Source of the DNA: Cellulophaga sp. BC115SP
Lineage (GTDB): Bacteria; Bacteroidota; Bacteroidia; Cytophagales; Spirosomataceae
Length of the DNA stretch: 64,000 nucleotides
Assembly (NCBI RefSeq): GCF_009905545.1
Contig: NZ_JAAALB010000001.1
Location: 186,001-250,000, forward strand
Direction of reading: 5' to 3'
Shown piece after piece: positions 32,593 to 36,051 of the stretch. Under the pieces are notes generated by a model. It was not told the origin of the DNA and searched no databases. It saw only the letters and a program-made list of their open reading frames with translations. Numbering within the stretch: the stretch's first letter is position 1; each line of letters begins with the position of its first letter. The position numbers and the translations under genes are program-made.

Positions 32593-33882
32593 TTATTCTG
32601 CCCAGCTTTCGCTATTTTCAGTGTATGATTCACCAGTAGTGAGCCAGTTAGGGAAAATCTGGATATGTTTATTTTTCACCAAATTAAGCACAGTATCTCT
32701 TAATTCGTCTAGATTTTCCTTCTGCTCTGCTGAGATAAATACCGCCATAGGTTGAGGAGTGTGCAAATATGATTTTTTCAAAAACTCTGTAACTTTCTGA
32801 ATTCTTGAAGCTTGATCTTTTGGCTCTTCTTCCCAAGGATTCTCACCATGAACAACTTCCCAATCGTCCTGCTCTTTTTCAGTTGTTTCGGGTTCTACCT
32901 CAAACTTATCGATTTTGTTGAATATCAAAATCGTTGGTTTATCCGCTGCACCAATTTCAGTCAAAGTATCATTTACAATACCAATTTGCTCTTCGTAATT
33001 AGGGTGTGAAATATCCACAACGTGCAGCAAAATATCTGCTTCACGAACCTCATCAAGTGTCGATTTAAATGATTCAATCAACATGGTTGGCAATTTTCGG
33101 ATAAATCCTACGGTATCTGACAACAAAAATGGGATAGAATCAATCGTAACTTTTCGAACGGTAGAGTCTACTGTTGCAAACAATTTATTTTCGGCAAATA
33201 CATCTGCTTTTGCTAAACGGCGCATCAAAGTTGATTTACCAACGTTGGTATAGCCAACCAAAGATACACGCACCATTCTATCACGATTTTTACGCTGAGT
33301 TAGTGCTTGTTTATCGATTTGACGTAATTTTTCCTTCAAAAATGAGATACGGTCGTTGGCCGTACGACGGTCAGTTTCCAACTCTTTTTCACCTGGACCA
33401 CGCATACCCACACCCCCACGTTGCTTAGACAAGTGAGTCCACATACGTGTCAAACGAGGAAGAATATATTGCTGTTGCGCCAATTCTACTTGCGTACGTG
33501 CTTGTACAGTTTGCGCACGCATCGCAAAAATATTGAGGATCAGCAAACTACGGTCTAATACTTTTACCTCTTTTTGAAAATGCGCAAATTCGGCTTCGAT
33601 GTTACGAATCTGAATAGGAGAAAGCTCATCATCGAAGATGATCATATCCACATCATTGTCGATTACATACATCAAAATATCTTGCATTCGTCCCTTTCCT
33701 ACATACGTGCGGTTGTCGGGGCGTTCGAGTTTTTGAGTAAAAGTGTACAGCGTTTCGATACCCGAAGTATCTGCCAAAAATGCTAGCTCATCGAGATATT
33801 CTTTGGTCTGAGCAGCATTTTGTTTCTGTGTTTGAACGGCAACCAAAACTGCCGTTTCTTTTTCTTTATAAGTACTATGCAT
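32593..33882 (-). CDS. hflX: ribosome-associated GTPase HflX
   Basis: 429 residues. The N-terminal HflX domain (TYVGKGRMQDI, FDDELSPIQIRNIE, DRSLLILNIFAMRA) leads to the glycine-rich linker RGGVGMRGPGEKELETDRR and the G domain. The G domain has LVGYTNVGKSTLMRRL (G1), DTVGFIRKLP (G3) and IFNKIDK (G4). The protein binds the 50S subunit and rescues or splits stalled ribosomes under stress. An acidic insertion near residues 330-355 (EQDDWEVVHGENPWEEEPKD) is typical of Bacteroidota copies. A good promoter match lies 65 bases upstream. Confidence 0.95.
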   Translation of the reverse strand: MHSTYKEKETAVLVAVQTQKQNAAQTKEYLDELAFLADTSGIETLYTFTQKLERPDNRTYVGKGRMQDILMYVIDNDVDMIIFDDELSPIQIRNIEAEFAHFQKEVKVLDRSLLILNIFAMRAQTVQARTQVELAQQQYILPRLTRMWTHLSKQRGGVGMRGPGEKELETDRRTANDRISFLKEKLRQIDKQALTQRKNRDRMVRVSLVGYTNVGKSTLMRRLAKADVFAENKLFATVDSTVRKVTIDSIPFLLSDTVGFIRKLPTMLIESFKSTLDEVREADILLHVVDISHPNYEEQIGIVNDTLTEIGAADKPTILIFNKIDKFEVEPETTEKEQDDWEVVHGENPWEEEPKDQASRIQKVTEFLKKSYLHTPQPMAVFISAEQKENLDELRDTVLNLVKNKHIQIFPNWLTTGESYTENSESWAE

Positions 33883-34155: not shown

Positions 34156-36051
34156 TTATGAATGTTGATTTAATGTATCCTGATATGGCGCAATAATTAG
34201 GTGGTTCTCATTATGGATACTCAGTGTATGACCATATTTTTGTGCAATTTCTACGACTTCTTGGGGCTGTAAACTACCCTTTTGAAATAATACTTTCGAC
34301 AAGGCAACCAAATAATCTTTGTTTTGTACCAAAAGCTCCTGCGTTTCTTGCTCTAAATTTTTCATCATTTTCTCAATCGACCAGTCAGTTACTGTCATAT
34401 CCATGCTGTATTCTGCTGAACTCATGTAATAAGAAGCAAAATTACGGTCGAAGCCAAACTTGCGAATATATTCCATCACTAAACCTGCGGCATCTTCTCG
34501 GTCAAAACTTTGTGCAATTGTGACGTTTTCTTCGCCAAAAATTAATGATTCAGCTAATCCTCCTGCTAAATAAATTTTGATTTTCTTTAAAACATTTTGC
34601 TCTGACATGTGTATCTGATGAGGGAATGAAAATCCTCCCGCATACGATGACGCCACCCTTGACTTAAGCTGTAATGGGGCAACTCCTAACAGTAAAGAAT
34701 ATGCCACTGCATGACCAGATTCGTGCACAGAGATATTAGCAATCATATCTGGCAAATTGTTTTGACGAATCAAATCTACTTTTCCTATGTAAGGAATACG
34801 CTTTTCGGAGGTTTCGCCCCAAGTAGCAATGAGTTCTTTTTCAACAAAATTATAATCCAAAGTAATTTCCTCTGCACTTTCCACTAATGCTTCAAAAATA
34901 ACACTGGATAAGTTGGCTTCAACAACATCTACAATACTCGAAAAAACAGGTCTAACACCTTGAACAGGGAATACTCCGTTTTGATAAACCAGTTGTTTAA
35001 CGGCATCCGTTATTGTCGTCTTCAAAGCAAAATGCTCAATGTTACGTTTCTCAATCTTACGAATTTCTAAATCAATGAGCGCATTAAAATCTTGCTTTTT
35101 GAGTGACCGATAAATCAGGTGAATATTTCCAAAACGTGCGACTTGTTCTGGTTTAAACTTTCTAGAAAGCGCCTTTTTAATATCAATAATCGTGATTTTT
35201 TCAGTAAAAGCTCTAAAAATATCAGCATCTACATCTGTTTCACCTGCTTCATCAGCCATTGAATATGCCTCATCGAGGTTACCACTGATAATAATTAAAG
35301 TTTTAGCATGATTAATCGGTTCAAAAACGGTCTTTTTATCTCGTTTTTGTTGCATAATTTTCAACATATCATCCTCTTTCATCTCTGCAATTTCATGTAC
35401 AGACTCGTTAAGGACAAAAGTTTTCTTCAAATTATACGCTTCCCATAACCCTACCAAATCATCATCTTCATCAGATATATCATCGTCCACAGGTTTATTT
35501 TTACGCTTCTGACGCTGTGTAGAAGAATGCATATAGCGCTGCATATATTCATCTATCGACTCTTTGTTGTCTTTTTTGGAAAGTCGTCCATCGGATAACA
35601 ACTCCCAAAAATCCTGAGAACGGGTATTTGTAACCACTTTTCCTTCGGGGTCGATGGTATAAAAGCGTTGTATTTCATCGAATAATACAATAGCTGGCTT
35701 GCCATCATTGATACAGTTGCTCTCAAAAATAGAAGCTACCGAAGTGTACCAATAATTTTCGCCATGTGATAACTCAACTTCTACAAATCTATCTTGATAT
35801 TCTAGTTTTGAAACCAATCGACGTATCAAATCGGTTTTTCCTACGCCTGTCATACCCCAAAGGTTTACAACAATAGGACGAACCAATACATCTGGCATCA
35901 AATACCAGATTTGGATATAATTGATTAATTCGTCGATAATATAGTCAATGCCGATAAATTCGGATTTCAGCTCTTGTTTGATAACCTCTAGGCGACGTTT
36001 TTTGATATTTATTTCCTCTAGGTTTATTTCAACCTTCTGTTCTGTGCTCAT
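34156..36051 (-). CDS. AAA+ ATPase fused to M41 (FtsH-type) metallopeptidase domain, soluble
   Basis: 631 residues. The AAA+ module has Walker A GMTGVGKT (66-73), Walker B AIVLFDEI (D125, E126), a charged insertion near residues 180-205 (DDDISDEDDD) and a ClpB/HslU-like small domain (GVFPVQGVRPVFSSIVD) near residue 370. The C-terminal M41 domain has ISVHESGHAVAYS (H443, E444, H447) and, about 70 residues on, LAGGLAESLIFGE with IAQSFDRED providing the third zinc ligand (about D517). No transmembrane segments are seen, unlike FtsH. It is presumably an ATP-driven cytosolic protease. Substrate unknown; gene stands alone. Confidence 0.85.
   Translation of the reverse strand: MSTEQKVEINLEEINIKKRRLEVIKQELKSEFIGIDYIIDELINYIQIWYLMPDVLVRPIVVNLWGMTGVGKTDLIRRLVSKLEYQDRFVEVELSHGENYWYTSVASIFESNCINDGKPAIVLFDEIQRFYTIDPEGKVVTNTRSQDFWELLSDGRLSKKDNKESIDEYMQRYMHSSTQRQKRKNKPVDDDISDEDDDLVGLWEAYNLKKTFVLNESVHEIAEMKEDDMLKIMQQKRDKKTVFEPINHAKTLIIISGNLDEAYSMADEAGETDVDADIFRAFTEKITIIDIKKALSRKFKPEQVARFGNIHLIYRSLKKQDFNALIDLEIRKIEKRNIEHFALKTTITDAVKQLVYQNGVFPVQGVRPVFSSIVDVVEANLSSVIFEALVESAEEITLDYNFVEKELIATWGETSEKRIPYIGKVDLIRQNNLPDMIANISVHESGHAVAYSLLLGVAPLQLKSRVASSYAGGFSFPHQIHMSEQNVLKKIKIYLAGGLAESLIFGEENVTIAQSFDREDAAGLVMEYIRKFGFDRNFASYYMSSAEYSMDMTVTDWSIEKMMKNLEQETQELLVQNKDYLVALSKVLFQKGSLQPQEVVEIAQKYGHTLSIHNENHLIIAPYQDTLNQHS

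Follow-up and report, generated by a model that had tools for sequence, protein, structure and literature searches.

A predicted soluble AAA+ protease joining a ClpB-type motor to an M41 peptidase domain in bacteria and large phages

A gene of Cellulophaga sp. BC115SP very probably codes for an ATP-dependent zinc protease that is soluble, self-contained and distinct in its architecture, and for which we infer both the activity and the hexameric state. The gene lies in the window, that is, the whole stretch of 64,000 nucleotides analyzed here (positions 186,001 to 250,000 of NZ_JAAALB010000001.1, assembly GCF_009905545.1), and its features are listed in window-based coordinates in Table 1.

Table 1. 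Features of the protease gene, its neighbor in the window and a related phage locus
Feature	Position	Strand	Basis or remark
HflX-type GTPase, downstream neighbor on the same strand	32593..33882	(-)	profile, locus comparison
Complete ORF, soluble AAA+ / M41 protein, 631 aa	34156..36051	(-)	Cellulophaga sp. BC115SP window
Walker A GMTGVGKT, aa 66-73	35833..35856	(-)	K72 99/99 (unique family sequences)
W101, candidate pore-loop-1 aromatic	35749..35751	(-)	inferred by aligning the GYVG region of ClpB
Walker B with D125 and E126	35674..35688	(-)	D125 99/99, E126 98/99
Pre-sensor-1 beta-hairpin, strands aa 156-160 and 243-247	35311..35586	(-)	AF2 model, ClpB/C alignment
Mostly helical insert inside the hairpin, aa 161-242, 82 residues	35326..35571	(-)	model and alignments
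Sensor-1 N258	35278..35280	(-)	99/99
Arginine-finger candidate R306	35134..35136	(-)	99/99; opposite the arginine of ClpB 'FSPEFLNR'
ClpB_D2-small (lid) domain, aa 317-397, with sensor-2 R367	34861..35103	(-)	Pfam; R367 99/99
Lid-to-protease linker, short beta strands, aa 398-439	34735..34860	(-)	AF2 model
Peptidase M41 domain, aa 440-602	34246..34734	(-)	Pfam, profile, PDB matches
HESGH zinc/catalytic motif, aa 443-447	34711..34725	(-)	H443, E444, H447 each 99/99
D517, candidate third zinc ligand	34501..34503	(-)	99/99; aligned to the FtsH 'GAxxD' aspartate
Locus with head and tail genes near the protease, phage L112	1182-2663 and 4233-4934		L112 coordinates

Protease domain and motor

An earlier note on this DNA, made from the sequence alone, had described a ClpB/HslU-like AAA module with a ClpB-like small domain, joined to an M41 domain with an intact HESGH and a distant Asp, and had called for a search with M41 and AAA profiles. 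Three Pfam domains scored over their cut-offs: AAA at aa 64-134 (24.2 bits, cut-off 21.2), ClpB_D2-small at aa 317-397 (26.6 bits, cut-off 21.9), which agrees with the proposed small domain, and Peptidase_M41 (47.6 bits, cut-off 29.9). The M41 part matched the FtsH M41 profile with E 4.6e-31 over 176 columns and FtsH structures in the PDB with E 2e-27; HESGH aligned with HEAGH of FtsH, and D517 with its zinc-binding aspartate, and nothing assigned this part to a non-M41 family. The zinc of M41 peptidases is bound by two histidines and an aspartate, as established for YME1L/FtsH (PMC12994072). Pfam M41 also exceeded its cut-off in all five bacterial homologs and in one of the two viral records tested, the other viral record reaching 27.5 bits, under the cut-off of 29.9.

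The affiliation of the motor is different. The profile of residues 1-415 matched ClpB/ClpC D2 with E 1.1e-16 over 291 columns, ClpX with E 2.1e-7, HslU with E 4.2e-6 over 75 columns and the FtsH AAA module with E 1.8e-5 over 65 columns, the last of which we take to be the P-loop region. Hence the earlier ClpB/HslU-like label stands for its first half, as the module is ClpA/B/C D2-like, but not for HslU, to which the match is much weaker. The features of the ClpA/B D2 type (HCLR clade) are present, namely the pre-sensor-1 hairpin, the D2-small lid, the arginine finger and sensor 2. Judged from its sequence and predicted structure, the motor is a ClpA/B D2-type AAA+.

We obtained an AlphaFold model from 57 family sequences with a pLDDT of 90.2 and a pTM of 0.84; an earlier model from 7 sequences was poor (pLDDT 69) and was set aside. 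In VIA-align comparisons, the N-terminal 420 residues superposed on Skd3 (Z 22.5, rmsd 3.2, 296 residues) and ClpC (Z 22.4, rmsd 3.9, 290 residues), and ClpB was matched too (Z about 22). FtsH, AFG3L2 and YME1 were matched over ~400 residues across both domains with Z 20.6-21.3 and rmsd 6.4-6.7, FtsH itself with Z 21.3 over 401 residues. Foldseek over the whole length ranked YME1 and FtsH first, and the M41 domain is clearly FtsH-related, as would be expected of a divergent FtsH that lost its anchor, kept an FtsH-type motor and still works like FtsH. We nevertheless regard such an origin as highly improbable, given how much shorter and weaker the FtsH match of the AAA module is than that to ClpB/C, a lid that matches ClpB_D2-small and not AAA_lid_3 in Pfam, and a score of 36.3 bits against the cut-off of 600 of the NCBIfam FtsH_fam model TIGR01241. 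The ClpB/ClpC model TIGR03346 gave 46 bits against 1232, the window protein having one AAA module.

Conservation across the family favors the reading as an energy-driven protease with a D2-type motor. Among 99 unique full-length sequences, 21 of them viral, K72, D125, N258, R306, R367, H443, E444, H447 and D517 are invariant, and Walker B position 126 holds E in 98 sequences, the other one having D. All ten catalytic positions are also kept in four divergent bacterial members. W101, which lies roughly opposite ClpB pore loop 1 in the alignment, is a candidate substrate-gripping residue and is not universal (W in 75 and Y or F in 7 of the 99). The window gene differs from two close Flectobacillus copies with dN 0.022/dS 0.84 and dN 0.014/dS 0.65; the resulting dN/dS of about 0.02-0.03 indicates strong purifying selection.

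The hairpin insert and the missing membrane anchor

In the alignment, the segment 'LLSDGRLSK ... INHAKTLIIISGNL' faces a ClpB/C segment, and the window protein has ~80 residues extra between the two strands, so that the insert sits within the pre-sensor-1 hairpin. The strands flank mainly helices in the AF2 model. Across 57 homologs, the insert spans 76-165 aa, and it is the least conserved segment of the protein (0.35 versus 0.6-0.7 in the motor core). The acidic insertion pointed out in the earlier note was half right: an insert at this position is conserved, and the window protein does contain the acidic patch DDDISDEDDD, but the net charge ranges from -9 to +4 in these 57 sequences, so that acidity is a local trait and not one of the family. 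The helical insert probably serves substrate or adaptor recognition.

The earlier note had also seen no transmembrane segment, and this was borne out: the highest 19-residue Kyte-Doolittle mean of the protein is 1.45, and no hidden membrane helices were found in it, whereas the FtsH encoded by the same genome reaches 2.29 and has two hydrophobic stretches. Only 4 of 108 family members exceed 1.6, the highest value being 1.70, and these peaks overlap the M41 HExxH region in three cases and lie in the small domain in one. The open frame (636 aa) is barely longer than the called protein (631 aa), with only ~5 codons open 5′ of the ATG, which leaves no room for a hidden N-terminal anchor. The protein is thus predicted to be soluble, and it may associate with the membrane through a partner.

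The protein resembles FtsH, YME1 and the m-AAA proteases in having an AAA+ module followed, in a single chain, by a C-terminal M41 domain with HExGH and Asp. In contrast to FtsH, it lacks the transmembrane and FtsH_ext regions, combines a ClpB-type AAA with a small domain where FtsH has the classic AAA with AAA_lid_3, and has the helical insert. With the D2 modules of the Hsp100 proteins ClpB, ClpC and ClpA it shares the Walker motifs, the DGRL-to-sensor-1 hairpin that holds the insert, the D2-small domain, the arginine finger ('FKPEQVAR') and sensor 2 ('GVRP'), but it has a single AAA module without N-domain, D1 or middle domain. In 57 sequences, the stretch from sensor 1 to R306 contains no IG[FL] ClpP-binding loop, which is in keeping with a built-in protease attached to the same chain. 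Lon is an analogous case of an HCLR-clade AAA+ motor and a protease in one soluble chain; the protease domain of Lon is a Ser/Lys peptidase, whereas that of the window protein is a zinc M41 domain. HslU is likewise an HCLR-clade AAA+, but carries its I-domain between the Walker motifs A and B, while the insert described here comes after Walker B. The assignment of Lon to the HCLR clade has been published (PMC12994072). Plasmid matches from Brevibacillus and Aneurinibacillus, which carry FtsH_ext and AAA_lid_3, were rejected as ordinary FtsH.

Distribution in bacteria and phages

The earlier note had called for a taxonomic survey, and 144 bacterial loci emerged from a scan in which each species was represented by a single genome; a viral collection added 28 contigs with 24-35% identity, the longest of 353 kb. 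The full-length homologs among the bacterial and viral loci are 24-97% identical to the window protein, well outside what chance would give. The best 80 of the 144 loci belong to Bacteroidota, Cyanobacteriota, Pseudomonadota (Thiothrix, Thiolinea and Methylophaga), Actinomycetota, Planctomycetota and Acidobacteriota. The family thus occurs in at least six bacterial phyla, with the usual binning uncertainty for those loci that come from metagenome bins; isolate genomes back Bacteroidota and Pseudomonadota as carriers. Full-length homologs were found in 8 of 59 genomes of near relatives, the window's own included, in 4 of 395 sampled Bacteroidota genomes besides the window's own (about 1%) and in 27 of 78 Chryseobacterium genomes, and a cyanobacterial sample contained one in the seed genome only (n=194). 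The family is real but sporadic. Neolewinella aurantiaca, actinobacterium RBC023 and Arcicella sp. 337R each hold two different copies in their genome or bin (locus pairs L060 and L075, L091 and L092, and L035 and L056). In three metagenome-bin loci (L099, L101 and L105), the frames end early at 498, 525 and 347 aa, for which frameshift or assembly error is a candidate explanation.

The genome of Cellulophaga sp. BC115SP encodes a second M41 protein, a canonical FtsH (235 bits, 704-aa open frame), and hence the window gene is an addition and not the housekeeping FtsH. A canonical FtsH was also present in all five other bacterial carriers checked. An HflX gene adjoins the protease gene at eight loci, all from Flectobacillus, Arcicella and relatives, and at none in other lineages. 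In E. coli, hflX neighbors hflK and hflC, whose products regulate FtsH; the parallel may be a coincidence. Other lineages have stable contexts of their own, with fabH/fabD-like genes in Chamaesiphon and hisA/hisE-tat-like genes in Thiothrix and relatives (names assigned by eye from sequence). No partner gene conserved across phyla was found, synteny being limited to genera. As each lineage has its own housekeeping context and no common neighbor, the enzyme is argued to be self-contained.

A terminase and/or gp23-type capsid gene scored over the cut-off in 5 of the 19 viral records tested, so that at least those five are genuine phages. In a first tree, 77 bacterial sequences formed one compact and fully supported group and the phage sequences were far more diverse; a more careful tree placed a second bacterial group (L023 and L179-L181) interleaved with phage sequence. 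The members of this group have the same architecture at about 27-35% identity. One of them, L023:8243-10288, groups with the phage sequence L124, and a single genome (G031) carries both bacterial types. Since the trees are midpoint-rooted and have long branches, they at most suggest that the family arose in phages and passed to bacteria two or more times.

The phage neighborhoods bear on a further interpretation, in which the protein is mainly a chaperone or a limited processing protease that cuts one partner, for example phage head proteins, without processive unfolding, and was domesticated in bacteria. In phage L112, the protease gene lies ~2.3 kb downstream of the major head protein gene and adjoins a tail-protein-like gene, a virion structural protein gene lies near the copy in phage L128, and the insert could act as a specificity element. 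We consider this unlikely, as the full set of AAA+ motor residues is invariant, most phage neighbors examined are not virion genes (other copies adjoin NAMPT, helicase, methyltransferase or transposase genes), and the bacterial copies have no virion genes alongside. A nicotinamide phosphoribosyltransferase gene is found at L117:1894-3420 near the phage protease copy. PHROGs returned only partial matches, to phrog_4871 and phrog_30773.

The sporadic distribution and the exchange between phages and bacteria would also fit an anti-phage or phage counter-defense effector, and the AAA part shows weak similarity to PADLOC DolB. Within the N-terminal AAA part, though, that match is confined to about 90 residues, and the neighborhoods are housekeeping ones, stable within genera, with no defense island seen; a defense function is therefore improbable.

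Proposed mechanism and place among energy-driven proteases

As a soluble protease driven by its own motor, the protein would form a ring of six subunits, in which the ClpA/B D2-type module would use ATP through Walker A and B, sensors 1 and 2 and the arginine finger. The pore-loop aromatics would thread a cytosolic substrate through this ring and on into the attached M41 ring, where H443, H447 and D517 are predicted to bind zinc and E444 to activate water. The hairpin insert is the candidate element for recognition of the substrate or an adaptor. Most relatives lack the gene, and the bacterial carriers that were checked all encode a canonical FtsH as well; the most likely cellular role is therefore the regulated degradation of a specific set of proteins.

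A review of FtsH counts five energy-driven proteases in E. coli, namely ClpXP, ClpAP, HslUV, Lon and FtsH, and describes the FtsH family as membrane-anchored (PMC9020784). Searches of the open-licence literature turned up no report of M41 fused to a ClpB-type AAA+, which is weak evidence of absence. A 'peptidase M41' in an Ochrobactrum jumbo phage is a remote HHpred match within a replication protein (PMC7139368), and a survey of huge-phage ATPases names composite ATPase-proteases and leaves FtsH and M41 unmentioned (PMC8297831). A ClpB-type motor combined with M41 and no anchor may represent a new kind of soluble energy-driven protease. Tentatively, the family could form a separate soluble AAA+ protease class beside ClpXP/AP/CP, HslUV, Lon and FtsH, which diversified in large phages, entered bacteria on at least two occasions and degrades a defined protein set there; we regard this as plausible rather than probable, and the case for a separate class would be a fair one if activity were shown.

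In this family, which occurs in large phages and at least six bacterial phyla, the M41 peptidase is paired with a different motor clade and has no anchor. Should its members be active, they would raise the question of which proteins phages and their hosts degrade with them, would provide a soluble model for the M41 mechanism, and would mean that an Hsp100-type motor is able to drive M41 chambers.
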